This document shows, piece by piece, positions 22,732-34,728 of a stretch of 44,334 bases of DNA. Positions within the stretch are counted from its first letter, which is position 1. Each line of letters opens with the position of its first letter. Where the stretch lies: contig JACPFR010000006.1 in assembly GCA_016182905.1 (NCBI GenBank), forward strand, positions 1 to 44,334, written 5' to 3'. This DNA is from Elusimicrobiota bacterium. Its GTDB lineage: Bacteria; Elusimicrobiota; Elusimicrobia; UBA1565; UBA9628. The translations under genes and the position numbers were made by a program. The notes below the pieces were generated by a model. That model did no database searches. It was not told the DNA's origin and worked only from the letters and a program-made list of their open reading frames with translations.

Positions 22732-24284
22732 TGCCGCCTCGCCGCGACCCGCTCGTGGAGGCCCGGCGCAGGCTGGATGAGGCGGCCGGCGCGCTCGACG
22801 ACCTGCGCCGCCTCACGGGCGCCGGCGAGGCGCCCGCCGCGCCTCTCGTTCCCGCGTCGGAAGGCGTCAGGCGCGAGGCCTTGGCCTCCGCCCGCGAGGA
22901 TCTGCGCCGCCTGTCGGCGGAGCTGGAGGCCTCTCGCGCGCAGGGCGCCTCGCTGCTCGAGGAGCTCGGGCGGTTGCGCTCGGAGTTGGCCGAGCGGCCG
23001 ACGGCGCGCGACCTCGAGGAGGCCCGCGCCGAGGGCGAAGCGGATTCGGGCCGCCGCGCGGCGGAGCTGGCCCGGCAGGTCGTCGGGCTCAAGGAGCGCG
23101 TGGCGCTATTGAGCGCCGAGCACGTGCGCCTGGAGACCCTGCGGCGCAAGGCCGAGGCCTTCGGGTCGGACGCCGAGGCGTCCCGCCGCTCGATGGAGCA
23201 GGCCTTGAGGCGCGACCTTCTTGCCGCGCACGCGAAGCTCGACCGGGCCGCCGCCGAATCCGGAGTCCGCGACGCGAAGGCCGTCTCCGAGGTCGATGCG
23301 CTGCGTAAACGCCTGGACCAAGCGCTCAGCCGCATCCAGCGCGATGATCTGGAGCGCAGGCAGGCGCTCGAGGCCGTCCCGTCCTTGCGCGCCGATTTGG
23401 ATGCGGCTTCGGCCGTCATCGCTTCGCTGCGCCGGGAACTGTCCGAGCTGCGGGCGACGGCGCTGGGGCGCGAGCGCGCGCTCGAGCTGAACGCTCATGA
23501 GCTGGAGCGGAAGCTTCACGAAGCGCTCTCTCCCTCCCTGCCGCCGGCCGGCATCGAATCGGAGGGCGGCCTCGAAGAGCCTTCCGGCGTCGTATATCCG
23601 GCCATGGAGTTCGCCCTCGAACCGGGCTGGGCGAGACTGCTTCGCCTCGTGAAGCCGCCCCTTCAGGCCGCCTACGGTCACCTGCGCCGTCTTTCGTCCG
23701 GGCCGATGTCGACGGGGCAGCGCGCCCTCCTGCGTCTGACCGGCTCGAGTCTCAGCCAGGCGGCGGATTCCCTGGCGACGATCGAACTGGCGCTTTCCGA
23801 CTCGCCGGCGTCGACCGAAACGGCCCCGATCTCGCCGGTCCTCGATTCGGCTCTAGCGGCCTGGGACGCCGCGTTCCGCGGCCGCGGAATCACTCTGGCG
23901 CGCGAGGGTTCCCGCCAGATGCCCGACTCCCCTCACGACCCGGAGCAGCTGCGCCTGGCTCTGCACCATGTGCTGCGCAACGCGCTCGAGGCGCTTCCTC
24001 GCGGCGCGACGTTGCGCGTCAAGCTGGCCGCGTCCGAGTCCGGGGCGGTACGGCTCGAATTCCGCGACGACGGTCCGGGCTACCCGCTCGCTTGGCTCGA
24101 GCGCAGGTTCGAGCCGTTCGTCTCTCCCCGTCAGGGCCGCGCGGGACTGGGACTGGCGGCGGTGCGTCGCGCGCTGCGCCGCTGGGGCGGCGACGCGGAG
24201 GCGTCGAACGCCGCGAGCGGGCACGGCGCCTGCTTGATCTTGGCCTTCGCGCCCGCGCCGGCGCGCCCCTCAGACAGGCCGTGA
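22731..24284 (+). CDS. Coiled-coil protein with histidine-kinase-type ATPase, phospho-acceptor His missing
   Basis: The start ATG overlaps the stop of the fusion gene (TGATG), giving 517 residues. Residues 1-250 are long, charged, Ala/Leu/Glu/Arg-rich coiled coil with no signal peptide or TM. A HisKA-like helix follows, and the position equivalent to the H-box His (RLVKPPL) is Arg305. His317, twelve residues later, is off the usual position. The C-terminal ATPase keeps an N-box (HHVLRNALEALP), G1 (DDGPGYP) and G2 (GRAGLGLAAV). It is probably cytoplasmic. It could be a pseudokinase scaffold, an allosteric partner of the flanking kinases, or a kinase that phosphorylates another protein. Its place between the rotor-like gene and a kinase points to motor control, which is inference. 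Confidence 0.85.
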   Translation: MPPRRDPLVEARRRLDEAAGALDDLRRLTGAGEAPAAPLVPASEGVRREALASAREDLRRLSAELEASRAQGASLLEELGRLRSELAERPTARDLEEARAEGEADSGRRAAELARQVVGLKERVALLSAEHVRLETLRRKAEAFGSDAEASRRSMEQALRRDLLAAHAKLDRAAAESGVRDAKAVSEVDALRKRLDQALSRIQRDDLERRQALEAVPSLRADLDAASAVIASLRRELSELRATALGRERALELNAHELERKLHEALSPSLPPAGIESEGGLEEPSGVVYPAMEFALEPGWARLLRLVKPPLQAAYGHLRRLSSGPMSTGQRALLRLTGSSLSQAADSLATIELALSDSPASTETAPISPVLDSALAAWDAAFRGRGITLAREGSRQMPDSPHDPEQLRLALHHVLRNALEALPRGATLRVKLAASESGAVRLEFRDDGPGYPLAWLERRFEPFVSPRQGRAGLGLAAVRRALRRWGGDAEASNAASGHGACLILAFAPAPARPSDRP

Positions 24285-26365
24285 AGCTCTTCCCGCGCCT
24301 CTTCCTCATCCTGATGCTCTTCGCGACTTTGCCGCTCGCCGGGCTCGGCGGATGGATGATGTCCGGGCGCAGGGCGGTGCGAGACAACGCCCGCGTCATG
24401 CACGGGCGTCTGGCGGCGCTGACGGGAGAACAGGCGGAGCGCACGCTCGAGCAGCTCAACCGGGCGCTCGGCGTCGTCGAGGAGCTCGACCGTGCTCGCG
24501 GCCTTACGCGGCTCGAAGAGGGCGCCGTGAGGCGCGCCGCGCTCGCGGACTCCTCCATCGCGCTGATGTCGCTCGTCGATGCCGCGGGGCGCGAAGTCGT
24601 GCGCGTGGCGGACCCGGATCTGTTCTCGACCAGCCCCGAGGATCGCTCGGGCGATCCCGCCTTGCGCGAGTCGAAGAAGACGGGCCTGGTGTCGCTGGGC
24701 GCGCCGATCTCCGCCGGCGGCCGGGCCTTCGTTCCCGCCGTCCATCCGCTGGCCGACGGACGCAGCCTGTACCTGATCTATTCGCTGACCGCCCTGGCCA
24801 AGCGCATGCAGCGCATCACCACGAACGCCGGCCGCCTGCTGTTCGTCGACGCCGAGGGCCGCCCGATCCCGGGCGTCGGCGCGCCTCCTCCGGCGGCGGA
24901 TTGGCGCTGGCCCGGCGGGAGCGGGGGTGGGTGGCTCGATGACGTCGCGGGCGACGGCGGCGCATGGGTCGCCGCCGCGGCGCCGGTTCCCGCCTTGGGA
25001 TGGCACGCGGTCAGCCTGCAGCTGCGGCGGGAGGCCTACGCGGAGGAATCCGAGGTCGCGGCGCGAGCGGCGGCCTTCTTCCTCGCGGTGCTCGTGCTGG
25101 TGGCCGCGGGCGCCTACATGCTGAGCAAACGCCTGGTTCGGCCTGTGGAGCTTCTTCTCGCGGCGGCCGAGCGGGTGTCCGCCAATGATTTCTCCCGTCC
25201 CGTCCCCCCCCTCGGCTTGGGCGAGTTCGAGCGTCTTCGCTCGACCTTCAACGCGATGACGGAGAAGGTCAGCCGCTACCAGGGCTTGCAGGTCGAGAAG
25301 CTCCTGGAGGAGAAGGCCAAGATCGACGCTTTGGTCAAGAATATCCCCGATGGCGTCCTCCTGGCGGCCCACGACGGGCAGGTGCTGTACATCAACGCCC
25401 TCGCCGCCAGGATCATGGGCGTCGACGCGACGGGCAAGCTCGAAGTCTCCACGATCGTGGGCAAATCGCCCAAGCTGATGAAGCTGATCGACGCGGCTCG
25501 CGCGGGCAACAAGATGGGCGAGTTCTTCCACGTCGAAATACAGGCGAAGGAGGGCGAGAGGAATCGGTACTATTCCTGCCAGGCTCTGACCGTATCCCGC
25601 GAAAAGGTCCAGATAGGCATCCTCGTGCTCCTGCGCGACGTGACGGTCGAGCATGAGCTGGAGAGCATGAAGGAGGAATTCTTCCATTCCCTCGTGCACG
25701 ACCTGCGGGGGCCGCTCACGGTGATCGACGGCATCGTCACCCTCATGAAGAACCTGCCCAACGGGGGCGAACGCGAGAAGCGCTACGCGGAGTTCGGCGC
25801 GCAGGCCTCGAAGCGGCTGGCCGGCCTGATCACGGACATCCTCGACACCGCCAAGATCGAGTCCGGCACGATGAGGATCAACCTGGCGAAGACGAAGGCG
25901 GAGTCGATCCTCGATGCCGTCCGCAAGCTCTATCAGATCCCCGCCGACGGCAAGAGCATCGTGCTGACGGCCGCGTCCGCGCCGGACGCCGAGCTGACCT
26001 GCGACGCGCCGCTCCTCGAGCGCGTGCTCATGAACCTGGCCGGCAACGCGTTGAAGTTCACCCCGGAAGGCGGGCGCCTCGCGCTCGCGGCCCGCGTGGT
26101 CGGCCCGGACGTCGAATTCTCGGTCCAGGACAGCGGCCCGGGCATCCCCGCCGACAAGCTCGACGCGGTGTTCGAGAAATTCAGCCAGCTCGACCGAGAC
26201 GCGGCTTCCCGCGCCGGTTACGGCCTGGGCCTGGCCATCTGCCGCAAGATCGTGGAGCTGCACGGCGGCCGCATCTGGGTGGAATCGAAGCCCGGCGACG
26301 GAAGCCGCTTCGCGTTCCTCGTGCCGCGCGCCGGCCCGGCGGCCAAGCCCGCCGGTCCGGCCTAG
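24281..26365 (+). CDS. Cache-HAMP-PAS sensor histidine kinase
   Basis: The GTG start at 24281 overlaps the previous stop (GTGA), giving 694 residues. TM1 is at about 4-27, followed by a periplasmic Cache-like sensor of about 230 residues, TM2 at about 262-281 and a HAMP. A PAS domain follows (about 345-455, DALVKNIPDGVLLA). HisKA has SLVHDLRGPL with His473 as acceptor. The ATPase carries NLAGNALKFTP, DSGPGIP, FEKFSQLD and GYGLGLAI. All catalytic boxes are intact. It is the last gene of the + strand operon, and its TAG stop interlocks with the stop of the convergent motB-like gene. It probably signals to the receiver proteins at 27857-28715. Confidence 0.93.
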   Translation: MKLFPRLFLILMLFATLPLAGLGGWMMSGRRAVRDNARVMHGRLAALTGEQAERTLEQLNRALGVVEELDRARGLTRLEEGAVRRAALADSSIALMSLVDAAGREVVRVADPDLFSTSPEDRSGDPALRESKKTGLVSLGAPISAGGRAFVPAVHPLADGRSLYLIYSLTALAKRMQRITTNAGRLLFVDAEGRPIPGVGAPPPAADWRWPGGSGGGWLDDVAGDGGAWVAAAAPVPALGWHAVSLQLRREAYAEESEVAARAAAFFLAVLVLVAAGAYMLSKRLVRPVELLLAAAERVSANDFSRPVPPLGLGEFERLRSTFNAMTEKVSRYQGLQVEKLLEEKAKIDALVKNIPDGVLLAAHDGQVLYINALAARIMGVDATGKLEVSTIVGKSPKLMKLIDAARAGNKMGEFFHVEIQAKEGERNRYYSCQALTVSREKVQIGILVLLRDVTVEHELESMKEEFFHSLVHDLRGPLTVIDGIVTLMKNLPNGGEREKRYAEFGAQASKRLAGLITDILDTAKIESGTMRINLAKTKAESILDAVRKLYQIPADGKSIVLTAASAPDAELTCDAPLLERVLMNLAGNALKFTPEGGRLALAARVVGPDVEFSVQDSGPGIPADKLDAVFEKFSQLDRDAASRAGYGLGLAICRKIVELHGGRIWVESKPGDGSRFAFLVPRAGPAAKPAGPA

Positions 26366-27006
26366 TTCTCGCGGCGGAGGATGTTGATCTCGATGCGGCG
26401 GTTGGCCGTGCGGCCCTCGGGCGTCGCGTTCGTCTCCACGGGACGGAACTCTCCGTAGCCGATCGCCGACAGGCGCTGCTGCGCTATGCCGTTGATCTCG
26501 AGGAAGCGCAGGACGGCGAAGGCACGCGCGGCCGACAGCTCCCAGTTCGTGTCGAACTTCGCGCCCTTGCCGAGGGGACGGTCGTCGGTGTGGCCCTCGA
26601 TCTGGATCGCATTGGGCAGGTCATTGAGGGTCGAGACGATCTCCTGGAGAATCGGCAGGGAATCCTTCTTGAGATAGGCGTCGCCGGAGTCGAAGAGCAC
26701 GGGAGCCATGAAGACGATGCGGATCTTGTTCTCGCCGATTTCCAGACGGGCGATCTTCTGGGTGCCGTAGCGGGTGAACATCTGCTGGATGCTCTGGGCG
26801 TCGTTGGAAAAGCGCTGTTCGGCGGCTTTCACGCTCATCTGGACGCCCACGCTGCGCGTCGCGGTGGCGACGTAGAGCAGCAGGAAGAAGATCATGAGAT
26901 AGCTCATGAGGTCGCCGTAGGTGATGGCCCACAGCGCGCCGCGGTTGAGCTGGTTCTCGAGATCCTCTTCGCGCTCGTCCCAGGAGCCGCCGCTCGGGTG
27001 CCTCAG
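26362..27006 (-). CDS. MotB-like stator protein (plug/TM plus OmpA-like domain), CTG start
   Basis: The 214-residue call starts at CTG 27006. The first in-frame ATG (26907) would cut off the essential MotB segment WAITYGDLMSY, including the proton-channel Asp equivalent to E. coli Asp32. No ATG, GTG or TTG occurs between the CTG and that segment. GGAGG (27014-27018) lies seven bases before the CTG, which overlaps the motA-like stop as CTGA, like the ATGA couplings elsewhere in the window. One TM helix (SYLMIFFLLLYVA) leads to a C-terminal OmpA/MotB peptidoglycan-binding domain (IQIEGHTDDRP, LSAARA, GYGEFRP, NRRIEI). It would anchor the stator to the wall and pair with the MotA-like protein. 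ExbD-type proteins lack this OmpA domain. Confidence 0.88.
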   Translation of the reverse strand: MRHPSGGSWDEREEDLENQLNRGALWAITYGDLMSYLMIFFLLLYVATATRSVGVQMSVKAAEQRFSNDAQSIQQMFTRYGTQKIARLEIGENKIRIVFMAPVLFDSGDAYLKKDSLPILQEIVSTLNDLPNAIQIEGHTDDRPLGKGAKFDTNWELSAARAFAVLRFLEINGIAQQRLSAIGYGEFRPVETNATPEGRTANRRIEINILRREN

Positions 27007-27788
27007 GTCGCCGCCTCCGCGTCCGCCTCCGCGCCGATCTCCAGGTCCTGGTAGGCCGCCAGCCGCAGCTCCACCTGGAAGGTCGGGCGGCTGATCGAGA
27101 TATCGAGGACGCCCTCGACGATCATTTCAAGGATCATCGTCTCGCGCATCGCTTGGGAGCGGATGTGGCCGGCCAGCGGGACGCAGATGAAGTTGGCCAT
27201 GCCGATGCCGATGAACGCCGAGGACAGCGCCAGGGCCATGGCCGGGCCCAGGCGCGTCGGCTCGGACATCGAATTGAGGACCTGCAGCATGCCGACGAGA
27301 GTGCCCAGCAGGCCGAACATCGGAGCGAGAGTCGCCATGGTCCTCAGGACGTTGGCGTCTTCCTGCCGTTGTATGCGCCGGCGCCGGATGGCGATGTCGA
27401 GGATCTCCCGCGAGCCGTTGGTCTCCCCGCAGGCCGCGGCGGTCTCAAGGGCGTACTTGAGGAAGCCGCCCGCGAAGCCTCCACCCTCTCCGCGAAGCGC
27501 GAGGATGCCGCCCTCGGCGCGCGCCCGCCGCGAGAGGCGCGCCAGCTCGGCCGCGGCCTCGGTCGGCGAGGGCAGGCCCCCGGGGAACAGCACCCAGGCG
27601 ACGGCGCGCAGGGCCCCTAGGATCTGCGGGAGAGAAGTATTGATGAGCATCGCCGACGCGAGGCCGCCGAAGACGATGAGCAGGCCGTGCGGATCGTAGA
27701 TGTTCCGGGCGGCGCCGGGGCGCGTGACGATCCATGCCAGCACGCCTGCGGACGAGAGGAGTCCGGTCCAAAGGCTGACGTTCACCAT
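27003..27788 (-). CDS. MotA-like stator protein
   Basis: The product is 261 residues with four TM helices (about 5-22, 33-53, 150-172 and 184-210) and the large cytoplasmic loop between helices 2 and 3 typical of MotA/PomA. DPHGLLIVFGG matches the MotA/PomA second helix. SRRARAEGGILALRGE in the loop resembles the charged FliG-contact region. APMFGLLGTLVG carries the conserved Pro of helix 3, and ANFICVPLAGHI the Pro of helix 4. It forms an ion-driven stator with the MotB-like product, encoded with a four-base overlap. AglR/ExbB-type channels are the main alternative, but the loop and the partner favour MotA. A strong promoter lies immediately upstream. Confidence 0.9.
   Translation of the reverse strand: MVNVSLWTGLLSSAGVLAWIVTRPGAARNIYDPHGLLIVFGGLASAMLINTSLPQILGALRAVAWVLFPGGLPSPTEAAAELARLSRRARAEGGILALRGEGGGFAGGFLKYALETAAACGETNGSREILDIAIRRRRIQRQEDANVLRTMATLAPMFGLLGTLVGMLQVLNSMSEPTRLGPAMALALSSAFIGIGMANFICVPLAGHIRSQAMRETMILEMIVEGVLDISISRPTFQVELRLAAYQDLEIGAEADAEAAT
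27014..27018 (-). promoter_or_regulatory. Ribosome binding site deciding the CTG start of the MotB-like gene
   Basis: On the - strand GGAGG lies inside the end of the motA-like gene, seven bases before CTG 27006. This is ideal Shine-Dalgarno spacing and the main support for the non-canonical start. Confidence 0.6.
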
Positions 27789-27795
27789 AGGCGGT

Positions 27796-27824
27796 AGGAT
27801 AGCGCCTATGCGTTACAAATTCAA
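27796..27824 (-). promoter_or_regulatory. Promoter of the motA/motB-like genes
   Basis: On the - strand TTGAAT (27819-27824), a 17-base spacer and TATCCT (27796-27801) precede the ATG at 27788, with seven bases between the -10 and the start. The 13-base string TTGAATTTGTAAC is repeated exactly in the promoter at 41207-41235. Confidence 0.65.
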
Positions 27825-27856
27825 TATGCGGCCGTTCTTGGTGCGGAGGGCGCCTT

Positions 27857-28273
27857 TCAGGGAGCCGTCCCCGGGGGCAGGGCCTCCGGAGCGGTGATGC
27901 CCGCGAGCTTCCAGACGTATTCTCGCAGCCTGGCCAGGTCGATCGGCTTGGCGATCAGCCCGATGGTCGGATCTCCGGCCGGCAGAAGCTCGCGCGCCTT
28001 TTTGAGGTCCATGCCCGTCATGAAGATGATCGGCACCCGGGGGATCCGCGGATCCTCGCGCAGCATTTTGAGCGTTTTCGTCCCGTCGCCGTAGCCCGGC
28101 ATCTGGATGTCGGAGATGATCAGAAACGGCTTGATGTCGCGCGCCTGGAGGAAGGACTGCAGGGCGTCGGAGGCGGTCGTTATGGTCAGCCCCGGGTGGG
28201 CGAGCGCTCCCTCGAGAATGGCGAGGATCGCCGGGTCGTCATCCACCATCAACAGCCATTTGGTCCTTGGCAT
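27857..28273 (-). CDS. Single-domain response regulator (receiver)
   Basis: The product is 138 residues and consists of a receiver domain only. It has acidic residues in MVDDDP, the phospho-acceptor Asp in IISDIQMPG, a Thr in FMTGMD and the Lys in IAKP. The receiver is complete and should be phosphorylatable. It has no DNA-binding or enzymatic output, as in CheY-type proteins that act by binding a motor or another protein. It follows a second receiver gene with a 40-base gap and precedes the motA-like gene. Control of the neighbouring motor is the natural hypothesis. Confidence 0.92.
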   Translation of the reverse strand: MPRTKWLLMVDDDPAILAILEGALAHPGLTITTASDALQSFLQARDIKPFLIISDIQMPGYGDGTKTLKMLREDPRIPRVPIIFMTGMDLKKARELLPAGDPTIGLIAKPIDLARLREYVWKLAGITAPEALPPGTAP

Positions 28274-28313
28274 CAGTCGAGGTCGATGAGCAGGATCTTC
28301 GCCATGCGCGCGC

Positions 28314-28715
28314 TCAGGCGTCTTCGGCGGGAGCGGCCGGAGGCGCGTCCGACTTGCAGAGCGCGTCGATGCTGCTGCCGAGGTCGGGGAGGTGCGGCGG
28401 CTTCTGCCGGCAGATGAAATTCGTCAGTCCCTGAACCCGGGCCCACTTCTCCTGATGCTCGACCGGCATCCCTGAGCAGATGATCACAGGCTTCGCGTGG
28501 AGGCCGGTCTCACGGAAGTTGCCCATCGCGGCGGGGCCGCCGCCTCCCGGCATGTGCATGTCGATGATCATGAGATCGGGCTTGACGGTATGCAAAAGCG
28601 CTTTCAGATGGGCGGCGTTGTACACGACCGACACTTGATGCCCCCGGTCCTTGAGGAAGTCGCCCACGACCGTGCAGTAGGCTTCGTCATCGTCCGCGAT
28701 GATTATGTTCGCCAT
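28314..28715 (-). CDS. Single-domain response regulator (receiver), first gene of its unit
   Basis: The product is 133 residues and receiver-only: acidic DDDE near the N-terminus, phospho-acceptor Asp in IIDMHMPGG, Ser in ICSGMP and Lys in RQKP, followed by a short Ala/Pro/Asp tail. It lacks an output domain. The MPGG loop is glycine-rich. It is clearly distinct from the receiver at 27857-28273, so two parallel or sequential phosphotransfer steps are possible with the three kinase-like proteins on the other strand. A leaderless-type promoter precedes the start. Confidence 0.92.
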   Translation of the reverse strand: MANIIIADDDEAYCTVVGDFLKDRGHQVSVVYNAAHLKALLHTVKPDLMIIDMHMPGGGGPAAMGNFRETGLHAKPVIICSGMPVEHQEKWARVQGLTNFICRQKPPHLPDLGSSIDALCKSDAPPAAPAEDA

Positions 28716-28801: not shown

Positions 28802-30019
28802 CTAATCTTCCCTCGACATCGCGCGAAGGCGCTTGAGGACGCTCTCCCGGTCGCACGGCGATGCCAGGCAGGAGCGCGCGATCTCTCGTGAATCCCCGAG
28901 CGGCGGCAGGAACTCGGCGCGCTGGTAGTCCTTCACGGCCTCGTCGCGGCGTCCGAGGACGTCGAGCGTCATGCCTCGCAGCAGATGGAGCAGCGACCGG
29001 AACGTGCCCGGCTTCTCCTTCGCCGTCGTCTCGATCGCGTGGTCGAGCCAGGCCAAGGTCCGCTCCATCTCCGGCTTGGCGAGGCAGTCGGAGCCGGACA
29101 GGCCGCACGCCAAGGTCAGCCACTTGCGGCGGAAGGCCCTCGGGTCCGCGGCGACGATCGCGTGCAGCTCCCGGCCGACCGCCAGCGAGCCGTCCCAGTC
29201 GCCGAGGCGGTGGCGGACCACCGCCTCGAGGAATATGAAGTAGGGACTGCCGGGAAAGTCCTTGCGCAGGCCCTGGATCAGGGGCAGCGCGCGCGCGTCG
29301 TCGTGCAGGTCGACGAGGTAGATCGAGGTCAGCATCTGCGCCGCCTGGCGCCGCGCGAAGCCGGCCTTGTCCGCCGCGCGCTGGATGCGCTCCAGGCCCC
29401 GCTTCTCGTCGCCGCGCAGGCCGAACAGCGCGCCGAGCTTGGCGATCCCCTGGAGGTGGGCGGCCTGGTAATCGAACACGCCCAGGCCCAGATAAACGTC
29501 CTCGTACTCGTCGTCGAGCTTCACGCACCTCTTGAGGTGCTTCATCGCCTTCTTGCCGTCGAAGTAGGCGTCGAGCCACTTCCCTTTCATGAGGTTCCAC
29601 TGGCCGCGCACGCCGAGCGTCATGCCGGAGACGTAATAGCCGTCCAGCCGCGTCTGCTTGTCCTTGGACTTGATGTAGTCCTCGGCCTTGCGCACGCCGG
29701 CCTCGATGTCCTGCTCGAAGAGGCCCTGCAAAGTCGGCGTATCCTTGAACAGCCCGTACTCCTGGGAGGCCTGCCACCAGATGGCGCCGGCCTCGAACAG
29801 GTAGCCGAAGGGGTTGTCCGGCTCGAGCTCGATGAGCTTGCGCGAGGCGCGGCGGGCCTCGGCGTAGTCGAGGCTGTACAGCGCGGTCAGGCCCGCGTCG
29901 AGCTGGGCCGTCGCCGCCGGCGACGTCCGCGCCCCCCCCGCCCGCGCGGGTTGAACGGAGAGGATGAACCACAAAGACACGAAGGCACAAAGAACGAACG
30001 GCTTTAGAGTCGACGGCAT
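28802..30019 (-). CDS. Secreted TPR-type protein with repeat-derived signal peptide
   Basis: I chose the ATG at 30019 (405 residues) because the product then opens with a signal peptide, MPSTLKPFVLCAFVSLWFI ending PARAG. The longer in-frame version from 30121 would add an NHKDTKTRR segment that is simply the translated other arm of an inverted repeat. The mature protein is helical with TPR-like units, for example a pair around LEPDNPFGYLFEAG, and includes a conserved DYQAAHLQGIAKLGALFGL stretch. It is probably periplasmic. The gene is last in the long - strand transcript, 91 bases after the other TPR gene, and the repeat arm lies in that gap. The specific function is unknown. Confidence 0.8.
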   Translation of the reverse strand: MPSTLKPFVLCAFVSLWFILSVQPARAGGARTSPAATAQLDAGLTALYSLDYAEARRASRKLIELEPDNPFGYLFEAGAIWWQASQEYGLFKDTPTLQGLFEQDIEAGVRKAEDYIKSKDKQTRLDGYYVSGMTLGVRGQWNLMKGKWLDAYFDGKKAMKHLKRCVKLDDEYEDVYLGLGVFDYQAAHLQGIAKLGALFGLRGDEKRGLERIQRAADKAGFARRQAAQMLTSIYLVDLHDDARALPLIQGLRKDFPGSPYFIFLEAVVRHRLGDWDGSLAVGRELHAIVAADPRAFRRKWLTLACGLSGSDCLAKPEMERTLAWLDHAIETTAKEKPGTFRSLLHLLRGMTLDVLGRRDEAVKDYQRAEFLPPLGDSREIARSCLASPCDRESVLKRLRAMSRED

Positions 30020-30083
30020 ACGGCCATGGCCGGCGACTTCTCTATCCGTTGCCGTTCTTCGTGTCTTCGTGTCTTTGTGGTTC
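29966..30083 (-). repeat. Long inverted repeat (MITE/REP-like) overlapping a signal-peptide region
   Basis: Arms at 29966-29996 and 30053-30083 match at 29 of 31 bases as inverted copies, with a 56-base loop. The arm core reads ACCACAAAGACACGAAG on the + strand at the left. Its AT content contrasts with the GC-rich surroundings. Similar ACAAAGACACGAAG-type repeats are familiar as dispersed elements in many environmental genomes (from memory, not searched). The left arm codes for FVLCAFVSLWF of the 28802-30019 product, and the loop carries that gene's start codon. Confidence 0.85.
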
Positions 30084-30110
30084 GATCCGTCGTCGTTCCA
30101 GTTCCCCATC

Positions 30111-31100
30111 TCAGTTCGCATAGATCCGCTCGCCGGCGTCGCCCTTGGGGTTCTTTTTGCGCGGGGCCTTCTTCGCCTTGGGCTTGGGCGCGGATCTCGG
30201 CTCGGGCTTCTCCAGCGCGGCGGCGCGCGCGCAGGCCGGGCGAAGGCCGAGGTCGCAGGCCGTGCGGTGATCGGCGAGGGCCGGGTCCTTGGCCTTGAGC
30301 GCCTCGTTGGCGAGGCCGCGGCGGAAATAGGCGTCGGCGAGCGTCAGCCGCGCGGCGTTCACGCCGCGCGGGACCGCGCCCGCCCGGCGGCGGTCGTCGA
30401 GGGCGCGCTCGAGGTCGGGGATCGCCCGGGTCAGGTCGCGGTGCGCGTTCTCCCAGTCTCCGAGCGCGGAGTAGGCGCGCGAGCGCCAGGTCAGGATCTC
30501 GGCCCGGCGCTTCTGCGGACGCTCGGCGGCGGCGGACAGGGCGGCGAGCGCCTCCCGATGCCGCCGCGCCGACAGGAACGCGCGTCCGTCGCCGAGGCTC
30601 GGCCGCGGGTCCTCGGAGCCGAGGAACCGCGCGGCCTTCGCGAAGGCCGCGCGGGCCTCGCGGTCCGACTTCGGCGGGCCCGAGACGAGGCGGGCCTCGC
30701 CGAGCGCCAGCCAGCCGTCGGGGTCGTCGTGCCGCGTCGAGAGGAACTCGAGGGCGTCGCGCTCGGCCTCGACGCCGCGCCCGAGGGCCGCGCGCGCGCG
30801 GGAGCGCATCAGGATCGCGCGCTCGTTGCGGGGGTCGAGCTCGAGGGCCTTCGTGAGGTCCTCCTCGGCCGCGGCGTCGTCGAACAGCGCGGCCTCCCCC
30901 TCCGCGCGCGCGAAGTGGGCGTGGGCCAGGAGCGGGCGCCCGTCCTCCGGCAGCCAGGCGCGCAGGGCGCGCGTCGCGTACTCCACCCGTTCCGGGTCCG
31001 ACGCGCTGCGCGCCTCGGCCTTGCGCAGCTGCTCGACGAAAGGCGACAGCGCGCTTACGGGCGCGGCGAGCAGGACGCCGAGGACGGCCGCTCCGATCAT
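30111..31100 (-). CDS. Secreted TPR protein
   Basis: The product is 329 residues. The ATG overlaps the LOG-family gene's stop (ATGA). A signal peptide (MIGAAVLGVLLAAPVSA) is followed by several TPR-like helix pairs, clearest around LTKALELDPRNERAILMRS and LTWRSRAYSALGDWENAHRD. A basic Lys/Pro-rich tail (PKPKAKKAPRKK) ends the protein. It is probably a periplasmic scaffold. It shares the operon with the TatT-type TPR lipoprotein but has no lipobox. No enzymatic motif was seen, and the partner is unknown. Confidence 0.85.
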   Translation of the reverse strand: MIGAAVLGVLLAAPVSALSPFVEQLRKAEARSASDPERVEYATRALRAWLPEDGRPLLAHAHFARAEGEAALFDDAAAEEDLTKALELDPRNERAILMRSRARAALGRGVEAERDALEFLSTRHDDPDGWLALGEARLVSGPPKSDREARAAFAKAARFLGSEDPRPSLGDGRAFLSARRHREALAALSAAAERPQKRRAEILTWRSRAYSALGDWENAHRDLTRAIPDLERALDDRRRAGAVPRGVNAARLTLADAYFRRGLANEALKAKDPALADHRTACDLGLRPACARAAALEKPEPRSAPKPKAKKAPRKKNPKGDAGERIYAN

Positions 31101-31984: not shown

Positions 31985-33252
31985 TGGAGTTTGAGAAGGC
32001 GGGGCAGCCACAGGCTCAGGGCCGGCCAATAGGTGACGACCATCAGGGCCCCGACAAGCAGGATCCAGAAGGGAAGGACGGCGCGGTACAGCGCCGGGAG
32101 CGGGCGATCGAAGCGGCGCGACGACAGGAAGAGGTTCAGGCCGAGCGGCGGCGTCATGTAGCCGATCTCGAGGTTGAGGAGGAAGAGCGCGCCGAGGTGC
32201 ACGGGATCGATGCCGTACTGCGTCGCGACGGGGGCGATGATCGGCACGACGATGACGATGGCCGAGAAGATCTCCACCATGTTCACGATGAGCAGGAAGA
32301 CGTTGAGCAGAGCGAGGAAGCCCCACGGGCTCTTCACGTGCTCGTGCAGGAACGCGAAGATTCGCCCCGGGATGTCCGCGTCGATCATGTAGCTCGTCAG
32401 GCCCAGCGCGCAGCCGAGGACGATCAGGATCGCGCCGACGAGGATCATGCTCTCGCGGGCGATCCCCGGGAGCTTCCGCCACGGCACGTCCTTGTAGATC
32501 AGGACCTCGGCGATCATCACGTAGAAGGCCATGACCGCGGCGGCCTCGGACGCGGTGAAGAATCCGCCGTAGATGCCGCCGATCACGATGAGCGGAAGCG
32601 GTATTTCCCAGGCGGCGGCGTGCGCCGCCTCGCGCAGCGCCCGCCAGGAGAACGGGATGGGCTTGACGTTCTCCCGCTTCGCCACGACGAAGGCGTAGAG
32701 CGACAGCGCCGCGAGCAGCAGGAGCCCCGGGACCGCGGCCGCGGCGAACAGCTTGTCGATCGAGATCTTGCCGACGAGGGCGTAGAGGATGATCGGCAGG
32801 CTCGGCGGGAACATGAGGCCGAGGCTCCCCGTCGTCGTGATCAGGCCCAGCGAGAAGCTCTCGGGGTAGCCCTGCCGGCGCAGCAGCGGGAAGATGAGGC
32901 CGCCGAGGGCGATGATCGTCACCCCCGAGGCTCCGGTGAACGCGGTGAACAGCGCGCAGGCGCACAGCCCGGCGACCGCGACGCCGCCGGGCAGCCAGCC
33001 GAACATCGACTCGGCCAGCGCCACGAGGCGCTGCGGCGCCTTGGACTCGGCGAGCAGGTAGCCCGCGAAGGTGAACAGCGGCACGGCGATCAAGGACGGC
33101 AGCGAGGCCAGGCGCGAGAGCTCGATGATGACCGCCGACGACTGGATCCCGGCGCCGTCGAACAGCCACAGCGCCAGCGCGCCCATCAGCGCGAACACGG
33201 GGACGCCGGCCAGCGCGAGGGCGGCGAAGCCGGCCAGCGCGAGCGCCGTCAT
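31981..33252 (-). CDS. TRAP transporter large permease (DctM family)
   Basis: The ATG at 33252 overlaps the small-permease stop (ATGA), giving 423 residues, the normal size for DctM. There are about a dozen hydrophobic segments. Family motifs include ALFTAFTGASGVTIIALGG in the first half, GLMFPPSLPIILYALV, and EIGYMTPPLGLNLF near the end. It would drive ion-coupled uptake of a substrate handed over by the binding protein at 33721-34728. The substrate cannot be told from sequence. It belongs to a TPAT-type TRAP system because a TatT-like lipoprotein gene is in the same operon. Confidence 0.95.
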   Translation of the reverse strand: MTALALAGFAALALAGVPVFALMGALALWLFDGAGIQSSAVIIELSRLASLPSLIAVPLFTFAGYLLAESKAPQRLVALAESMFGWLPGGVAVAGLCACALFTAFTGASGVTIIALGGLIFPLLRRQGYPESFSLGLITTTGSLGLMFPPSLPIILYALVGKISIDKLFAAAAVPGLLLLAALSLYAFVVAKRENVKPIPFSWRALREAAHAAAWEIPLPLIVIGGIYGGFFTASEAAAVMAFYVMIAEVLIYKDVPWRKLPGIARESMILVGAILIVLGCALGLTSYMIDADIPGRIFAFLHEHVKSPWGFLALLNVFLLIVNMVEIFSAIVIVVPIIAPVATQYGIDPVHLGALFLLNLEIGYMTPPLGLNLFLSSRRFDRPLPALYRAVLPFWILLVGALMVVTYWPALSLWLPRLLKLQ

Positions 33253-33746
33253 TTCCCGGCCGCCTCGGCGGCGGCGTCGGCGCTCTTGAACAGTATGTGG
33301 ATCAGCACCAGCGCGAAGCCCGCGGGGATGCCCGCCGCCGCGACCCAGGACTGGACCGCCAGCCCGCCGACGTTCAGGAGCTCGGAGGGGTTGGCCCGGT
33401 CGTCGATGAAATAGGTCCACGAGGCCCGGAGCAGGAGCGCGGTGATCGCCGCGCCCGCGAGGTTCGCCGTCAGGCGCAGCCAGGGCCTCCAGCTCTCCGG
33501 CGCGCCGACGTGCGCGGCCTCCCAGGCGAAGTGCTTCTCGGAGGCGGCGGCGAGCGCGGCGCCGAGGAAGCCCGTCCAGAGGACCAGATGCTTGAGGACC
33601 GTCTCCCCCCACAATAGGCCGAGGCCGAAATGGCGCAGGACCACCTGGGCGAAGGCGAGCGTCACCATGACCGCGAGGAGCGCCACTAATACGGCGCCCT
33701 CCACGGCGACGAGACTCGCCTCAGCTTTTCTTAGCTGATCGCGCAC
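33249..33746 (-). CDS. TRAP transporter small permease (DctQ family)
   Basis: The product is 165 residues with four hydrophobic segments. LAFAQVVLRHFG in the first helix and WGETVLKHLVLWTGFLGAALAA are typical of DctQ. The start is GTG 33746, inside the end of the binding-protein gene (26-base overlap). It yields MRDQLRKAEASLVAVEG before the first helix, the usual DctQ layout. It forms the membrane complex with the large permease. In many systems the two are fused; here they are separate with a four-base overlap. Confidence 0.9.
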   Translation of the reverse strand: MRDQLRKAEASLVAVEGAVLVALLAVMVTLAFAQVVLRHFGLGLLWGETVLKHLVLWTGFLGAALAAASEKHFAWEAAHVGAPESWRPWLRLTANLAGAAITALLLRASWTYFIDDRANPSELLNVGGLAVQSWVAAAGIPAGFALVLIHILFKSADAAAEAAGK

Positions 33747-34728
33747 GGAGGGCGGCGAGCTCCTTCTCGAACTTCCCGAGCAGCTCGGCGGAGAACAGCT
33801 TCCCGGCGAGCTCCCTGCGCGCGGCCGCGCCCAGCTCCTCGTACCGGCGGCGCGTCGCGGGGCCGGGGTCCGGGGCGAGGTCGAGGCCCTGCTTCTTCAG
33901 CGCCTCGAGGGCCTTGTCGTTCTCGGCGTTGGTGAGGTCGTTGAGACGCTTGAGGTGCTTGGCCGACAGGTCGGACAGAGTCTTCTTCTGGTCGGCGGGC
34001 AGCGCGTCGTAGAACCTCTTGGAGACGAGCACCGCGCCCGTGGACTCCGCGATCGGCACCGGGTAGATGTGCTTGACCTTCGAGTGCCACTGCAGCGCGA
34101 CGACGCCCAGCGGCGGGCCGTACACGCCGTTGATCATGCCGGTCTGCAGGGACTGCATGACGTCCACGATGGACAGCGGCACCGGGTTGACCCCGAGGGC
34201 CTTGTAGGCCGCCTGCGCGATGGGGTCGCCCTCCCAGACCCACATCTTCTCCTTCTTCATGTCGTCGGGCGAGCCGATCGGGTTCTTGGTGAACACGAAC
34301 ACCGAGCCGAGGTCGGTCCAGCCGAGCAGGACGAAGCCCCCCTTCTCGACGGCGGCGTTGAGCTCCTTGGCGTGCTTCGCGCGCACCGCCTCGAGCTCGG
34401 AGCGGGAGCGGAACAGCCACGGGGCGTCGAGCAGCCGCGTCTCGGGGGCGATGTCGCCCAGGCCCACGCCGGTGAAGCCCGCGGCGTGCAGCTGCCCGAT
34501 GCGGATCTTCTTGACCACGTCCTTCTCGTCTCCGGAGACGCCGCCGGCGTAGAACTTGAACTTGAGCTTGCCCGCGGTCTCCTTCTCGAGGTCCTTCGAC
34601 AGCTCGGTCAGCACCTTCATCCAGGTGGAGCCGTCCGGGGCGAGCGTCGCGAACTTGATCACCGTGGTCTGCGCCGCCGCGGGCGCCGCCAAGATGAAAG
34701 TCAGAGCCAGGGATCTAAAAGAAATCAT
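33721..34728 (-). CDS. TRAP transporter substrate-binding protein (DctP family)
   Basis: The product is 335 residues with a cleavable signal peptide (about 1-19, ending APAAAQ). The mature start TVIKFATLAPDGSTWMK is characteristic of DctP proteins. Later segments include GGVSGDEKDVVKKIRIGQ, APWLFRS and MQSLQTGMINGVYGPP. The Arg that contacts carboxylate substrates in DctP sits in the central beta-strand region of the family. Here the local sequence is MKKEKMWVWEGDP, where the usual basic residue is not obvious, so the ligand may not be a simple carboxylate. The start lies 14 bases inside the TatT-like gene. Confidence 0.93.
   Translation of the reverse strand: MISFRSLALTFILAAPAAAQTTVIKFATLAPDGSTWMKVLTELSKDLEKETAGKLKFKFYAGGVSGDEKDVVKKIRIGQLHAAGFTGVGLGDIAPETRLLDAPWLFRSRSELEAVRAKHAKELNAAVEKGGFVLLGWTDLGSVFVFTKNPIGSPDDMKKEKMWVWEGDPIAQAAYKALGVNPVPLSIVDVMQSLQTGMINGVYGPPLGVVALQWHSKVKHIYPVPIAESTGAVLVSKRFYDALPADQKKTLSDLSAKHLKRLNDLTNAENDKALEALKKQGLDLAPDPGPATRRRYEELGAAARRELAGKLFSAELLGKFEKELAALRARSAKKS

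Follow-up and report, generated by a model that had tools for sequence, protein, structure and literature searches.

The window analysed here is the whole 44,334-nucleotide contig JACPFR010000006.1 (C6) of an Elusimicrobiota genome (assembly GCA_016182905.1, 3.98 Mb, labelled G000; other G numbers denote the genomes compared with it, and L numbers denote loci). On its reverse strand, the 5' end of an open reading frame (ORF) for a tetratricopeptide repeat (TPR) protein is occupied by a palindrome, the arms of which (31 nt each, 94% complementary, 56 nt apart) were located by repeat search and form the best inverted repeat within 2.5 kb. The RNA fold predicted for the palindrome has an energy of -89.8 kcal/mol (z = -10.5), and a search of the window against Rfam matched no family. 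The features of the locus are as follows:

28802–30121, reverse strand: ORF of the TPR protein, 439 amino acids, reading in frame through the element (ORF and family search; substitution rates)
29932–29939, forward strand: C8 run, read as G8 on the coding strand (the G003 orthologue has G4), just past the predicted cleavage site (orthologue comparison)
29951–30112, no strand assigned: estimated extent of the inserted palindrome, with about 40 nt of the ancestral codons for the signal peptide gone (alignment to the orthologues of G003 and G016)
29966–29996, reverse strand: arm encoding FVLCAFVSLWF, the hydrophobic core of the predicted TPR signal peptide (repeat and ORF reading)
29997–30052, reverse strand: loop with an in-frame ATG at 30020–30018 (MPSTLKPFVLC...; sequence and ORF reading)
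30053–30083, reverse strand: other arm, encoding the basic, hydrophilic NHKDTKTRR (repeat and ORF reading)
30113–30121, reverse strand: ancestral start ATGCGAACT, still present and overlapping the stop of the upstream gene as in the orthologues (orthologue comparison)
30111–31097, reverse strand: upstream TPR gene, its stop overlapping the TPR start, in an order kept in relatives (ORFs and orthologue comparison)

An earlier note on this DNA had described the two arms and the hydrophobic peptide encoded by one of them, and both were recovered. It had also placed the start codon in the loop. An in-frame ATG is indeed present there, and the ancestral ATG (30121) lies in frame upstream of the palindrome as well; translation may begin at either of the two, so that the loop ATG is a candidate start rather than a certain one.

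The insertion was delimited by comparison with seven relatives of the same genus, in which the gene order and the overlap of the start codon with the upstream stop are kept (TATGCGAACTAG in G003) and in none of which (0/7) the TPR orthologue carries the palindrome. The closest orthologues, up to 92% identical, share the start ATG with the window gene and have native signal peptides, MRTSLLALLLALAPVSAHA/GGAKTS in G003 and MRTSLLALLIALAPVSVYA/GGARTS in G016 (here and below, a slash marks the predicted cleavage site). Aligned with these two, the window is ancestral through ATGCGAACT (30121–30113), then carries the element, and is ancestral again from CCCGCGCGGGCGG, homology being picked up at CCC[AG]CGCGGGCGG. 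As judged from these alignments, the element replaced the native h-region and was fused in frame with the TPR gene. Replacement of the original N-terminus, one of the outcomes proposed in the earlier note, is borne out by the orthologues, in which the repeat is absent and the signal peptide is of an ordinary kind that differs from that of the window gene, rather than being the same. A chance hairpin, formed by native signal-peptide codons of accidentally palindromic sequence, could draw on hydrophobic composition only; it is refuted by the repeat-free orthologues and by about 35 dispersed copies elsewhere, and its probability is close to nil.

The copies were found by searching G000 with the element, which gave 74 strand-specific matches in about 35–40 places, as expected of the mobile or dispersed repeat suggested earlier. 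About 35 copies of 100–160 bp are dispersed, possess inverted termini and lack an ORF of their own, and in these respects correspond to miniature inverted-repeat transposable elements (MITEs); most of those outside the genes described below are intergenic (gene calls approximate, from ORFs and codon-position GC). The common build of 30 aligned copies is AACGGATGAA-CCACNAAG-ACACNAAG-NCACNAAG-AACGG... loop ...CCGTT-CTTNGTG...GTGG-TTCATCCGTT. Variants of the units tend to be paired in the opposite arm of the same copy (at the position that varies most, 17/30 matches vs an expected 8.2; P = 0.0015), and in the orthologous copy L061 both arms have changed in concert (CACCAAG/CTTGGTG in G000 vs CACAGAG/CTCTGTG in G009). 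Empty counterpart sites were identified for L056 in G009 and for both L062 and L058 in G003 and G016. The L058 palindrome (1020–1134, G000) sits between apparent rpsG and fusA genes. A plasmid collection searched with the element gave no match. The only CAC palindrome of G001 (L080:1480–1650) is nested in another palindromic repeat (TAGCAGGCTGCTGAAAAA...TTTTTCAGCAGCCTGCTA).

Three further G000 palindromes form the N-termini of exported-type proteins, the native state being seen in orthologues in each case. In L007, a long TPR protein, native RAILASALLLVCAAPAFA/EKTEPG of G003 corresponds to element-coded SVLCVFVSLWFILAVAVLPSSVRA/EKTEPG; in L060, native MRPGLASVLALLLAAPASA/GVKAGG of G003 corresponds to element-coded SSCLCAFVVLSFPSPASA/GVKAGG with the cleavage region kept, and this signal peptide is element-coded in both G000 and G009. 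In the lipoprotein L054, MRRALAVAVAAGLLGA/CSFGRL of G003 is matched by WCLGVFVVIPFVSG/CSFGRL in G000, again with the cleavage region kept (lipobox VSG/C). In a fifth gene, a lone arm constitutes the signal-peptide core (MKSTRLFVSLCLCGSF..PARA/IELSLEE) both in G000 (L065) and in the sister species G003 (L078), where a pattern search found it to be the sole three-unit arm of the genome; the G006 orthologue of L007 likewise has a partnerless lone arm as its core. On these comparisons, palindromic DNA seems to supply the signal peptide in at least four G000 genes besides that of the window. The generalisation that every lone arm is a domesticated signal peptide was rejected, being true of L078 and L065 and untrue of single arms in G007, G332, G335, G337 and G001. 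A seemingly polytopic membrane protein at L349 (G009:C326) includes a hydrophobic segment (RLPFALCAFVSLWFFPRLF) that is encoded, around position 830, by a solitary arm-like sequence, which may be a remnant or a product of convergence.

The recurrence at signal peptides can be understood from the units of the arms. A tandem 8-nt repeat encodes a single octapeptide, whichever of the three frames is read. With CACAAAGA as the unit, one strand yields HKDTKTQR (mean hydropathy -3.0) and the opposite strand LCVFVSLC (+2.9); the latter is equalled in hydrophobicity, without a stop codon, by just 0.3% of all tandem octamers. A palindrome of such units presents its basic arm first and its hydrophobic arm last, whichever the orientation or frame, so that insertion at a signal peptide will often be tolerable and insertion in a gene body will not. 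Selection among survivors would suffice to produce the bias to signal peptides, and targeting need not be invoked.

In the window gene, the hydrophobic core is now arm-encoded (PFVLCAFVSLWF). By composition, the N-terminus (FVLCAFVSLWFILSVQPARA/GG) has the parts of a Sec signal peptide, namely a basic n-region, a hydrophobic core and A at -3 and -1, and the mean Kyte–Doolittle hydropathy of its best 11 residues is 2.6, compared with 2.8 in the native orthologue. The ratio of nonsynonymous to synonymous substitution rates (dN/dS) in the TPR body is 0.18 against G003, as between intact orthologues, and by this measure the body is under purifying selection. With regard to the proposed domestication as an export signal, the coding of the hydrophobic core by the arm stands, and the fused N-terminus presumably exports the TPR protein. 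At the junction, G4 of G003 has become G8, the arithmetic of which fits restoration of the frame (G8 also occurs in G009); the run may contribute to keeping element and body in one frame, or may be ordinary slippage. A dead N-terminus, with the protein no longer exported or the gene decaying, would be compatible with an export assignment read from sequence, with the long n-region counted from the ancestral ATG and with the G8 homopolymer within the junction. The frame is kept, however, the core and the AxA site are present, the body is as constrained as in intact orthologues, and four further genes show the pattern, which in two cases is shared between species; this alternative is regarded as improbable. 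The C8 homopolymer (29932–29939) is in its own right a possible site of slippage or phase variation in the coding junction, or an assembly error that would break the frame of the fusion.

Gene-bearing forms of the element were found in G013, G015 and G000, in which a GxxExxY gene (PF13366/TIGR04256, PD-(D/E)XK) lies exactly between such arms; the gene is absent from the window itself. The G013 protein scored 142.4 bits against a cut-off of 35 (NCBIfam) and 140.1 against 22 (Pfam). The protein (133 amino acids) has the PD-(D/E)XK catalytic residues (E, D, E-x-K), with E37, D77, E87 and K89 invariant in 41 GxxExxY sequences. Its predicted structure (mean predicted local distance difference test score, pLDDT, 94.7) adopts a Cas4/restriction-like PD-(D/E)XK fold in the model, with SSO0001 (Cas4, Z 9.1), BglII (7.4) and Hjc (6.5) among the fold matches. 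Neither PADLOC nor a PDB sequence search returned a match for GxxExxY, and literature searches for GxxExxY, PF13366 and TIGR04256 returned passing mentions only, with no paper on the element class and no published activity.

The arms track the GxxExxY gene: among 341 genomes of the phylum, it is present in 4/5 with at least seven arms vs 24/336 others (Fisher p = 1.7e-4). Across many phyla, the flanks of 67 GxxExxY loci had a median inverted-repeat score of 43, compared with 19 for 169 control ORFs drawn from the same loci (p = 3e-25), and a score above 40.9 was reached by 38/67 loci vs 2/169 controls. The arms across phyla consist of tandem 8–10-nt units that are lineage-specific (CACNAAGA, CGCNAAGG, CACAACGNN, CACAGATT), and six Brevundimonas genomes with the gene contain 6–15 dispersed cognate arms each, the reversed-pattern control giving zero. 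Long direct repeats (local scores 226–526) border the GxxExxY genes at L192, L196 and L209, instead of, or besides, inverted ones. Most dispersed palindromes of G013 share a 24-nt arm with the GxxExxY element of that genome. In G167, a 125-bp palindrome still contains both ends of the GxxExxY ORF, the initial ~39 nt running directly into the final ~28 nt with the stop codon, and another of 97 bp retains the last ~36 nt; since ORF ends are retained, the short palindromes there are internal-deletion derivatives of the gene-bearing element. The G000 copies have the arms and short inner motifs in common with gene-bearing elements, and the copy in the window may have arisen by the same kind of deletion as in G167.

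Dispersed, intergenic palindromes together with Y1_Tnp genes in 30/38 relatives could suggest an ordinary repetitive extragenic palindrome (REP) or bacterial interspersed mosaic element (BIME) moved by a REP-associated tyrosine (Y1) transposase (RAYT). REPs are 20–40 nt long and occur around a RAYT. The palindrome-rich genomes G013 and G015 are without a Y1_Tnp match, however, whereas the Y1-rich genomes G011 (8 genes), G003 (6) and G007 (5) carry 0–1 arms; furthermore, the arms are tandem octamers around GxxExxY genes, unlike REPs. A RAYT origin is accordingly considered very improbable.

The mode of movement was read from occupied and empty sites. In G000, about 10 nt (L056), 24 nt (L062) and 40 nt (window) of target are replaced; no target duplication was seen in the empty-site comparisons, and no fixed-offset direct repeat in 30 copies. 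Such replacement is more in keeping with nuclease cutting followed by break repair than with transposition by a DDE enzyme, and the GxxExxY nuclease may take part in moving the element. The alternative is a MITE moved in trans by a DDE transposase, with GxxExxY as cargo or bystander within the palindrome. In G167, GxxExxY elements of two arm types, short derivatives of them and an unrelated 113-bp MITE share the terminal inverted repeat GTAACTACTCAG (L327:902–1376, L341:1310–1851, L325, L344, L330 and L332), mostly with 8-bp target duplications, and the G001 palindrome lies within another inverted-repeat pair. Set against this are the replaced targets and lack of duplications in G000, and a GxxExxY–octamer link that spans phyla with differing outer flanks. 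Movement by a DDE transposase is a real possibility that falls short of an even chance; perhaps the octamer elements of G167 are nested in a DDE-type MITE, following insertion into its middle.

It is considered likely that a non-autonomous (MITE-like) copy of a GxxExxY inverted-repeat element entered the signal-peptide codons of the TPR gene, replaced about 40 nt of them and now serves as the signal peptide. In the gene-bearing form, arms of tandem 8-nt units (NCACNAAG) would enclose a gene for a GxxExxY PD-(D/E)XK nuclease. A copy without the gene would have inserted into the exported TPR gene, the fusion would have lasted because the element could act as a signal peptide from the outset, and the cleavage region would be supplied by the retained gene, adjoining the element. 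Several points count against this account. Signal-peptide function is read from hydrophobicity and an AxA site, and the n-region of ~40 residues from the ancestral ATG is unusually long. G009 has 15 arms and no GxxExxY match (genome 70% complete), and a clean deletion derivation from the gene-bearing element is not visible for the dispersed G000 copies. The G000 GxxExxY gene (L073:1501–1845, G000:C10) has a short deletion and a frameshift near its 3' end, and its protein is without the invariant N-F near the C-terminus; this copy is probably inactive while its derivatives persist. In G167, the shared terminal repeat and 8-bp duplications indicate that a DDE transposase probably moved the elements.

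A wider proposal, held tentatively and considered rather unlikely, is that GxxExxY nucleases are the engine of phylum-spanning selfish palindromic elements, cutting palindromes or cruciforms and replacing the centre without target duplication. The arms would then be portable signal peptides, independent of frame and orientation; within genes, they would be retained preferentially in the role of export signals and would outlast the element there.

That palindromes can supply parts of signal peptides is already known from the enterobacterial RU-1/RU-2 (ERIC, YPAL) MITEs, which are fused to genes such as Y. pestis YPO1552 (Delihas 2007, PMC2759123, PMC2229807). There, too, related proteins elsewhere carry unrelated signal sequences, but the sequence and taxon differ from those of the Elusimicrobiota element. 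The present case goes further in that orthologues of up to 92% identity still show the native signal peptide that was replaced, the number of genes affected is five, the octapeptide of the 8-nt unit does not depend on the frame and a gene-bearing relative (GxxExxY) is identified. Rickettsia palindromic elements (RPEs), in the account given of them in PMC2229807, are scattered through the genome and have entered protein-coding genes without loss of frame. They resemble the present element in this respect, but are known inside gene bodies, whereas the coding insertions here are at signal peptides. REP/BIME–RAYT systems likewise combine dispersed palindromes with a proposed dedicated enzyme, but the Y1 transposase does not track the Elusimicrobiota palindromes. 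Intervening sequences of 23S rRNA with an S23p/IVP ORF (PF05635) have a small ORF between inverted repeats and were proposed to be selfish or mobile (PMC4990558). PF05635 genes of this phylum also tend to sit between inverted short-unit arms, but encode a four-helix bundle protein and have other units (AGTGTAGAG-like). At the PF05635 loci of the phylum (L211–L240), inverted arms of short tandem units (AGTGTAGAG, GTAAGCGA) were observed, 11/30 being above the control level. Among PD-(D/E)XK nucleases, Cas4, lambda exonuclease and Hjc resemble GxxExxY in predicted fold (best match Cas4 SSO0001), but GxxExxY has only 133 amino acids and no published activity was found for it.

The neighbours of the TPR locus (24092–28715 and 33249–34728) include PAS/HAMP histidine kinase, OmpA-family and MotA/ExbB proteins, two receiver-like ORFs and DctP/DctQ TRAP transporter genes, and have no bearing on the palindromic element.

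The interpretation of the earlier note is supported by these results; it did not include the GxxExxY-associated element type, the octamer code that reads alike in every frame, or the fact that other genes are affected too. New, as far as the literature searches reach, are the before and after states in sister species, the recurrence in five genes and the persistence as lone arms, together with the explanation by frame-independent octamers and the association with GxxExxY. These findings also account for the HKDTKTQR and LCVFVSL stretches that recur at the termini of proteins predicted from these genomes, and a widespread, uncharacterised nuclease family gains a likely role, GxxExxY being the gene of a selfish inverted-repeat element. 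Visible before and after the event in sister species, the insertions show concretely, and more than once, how mobile DNA can recast the N-termini of proteins.
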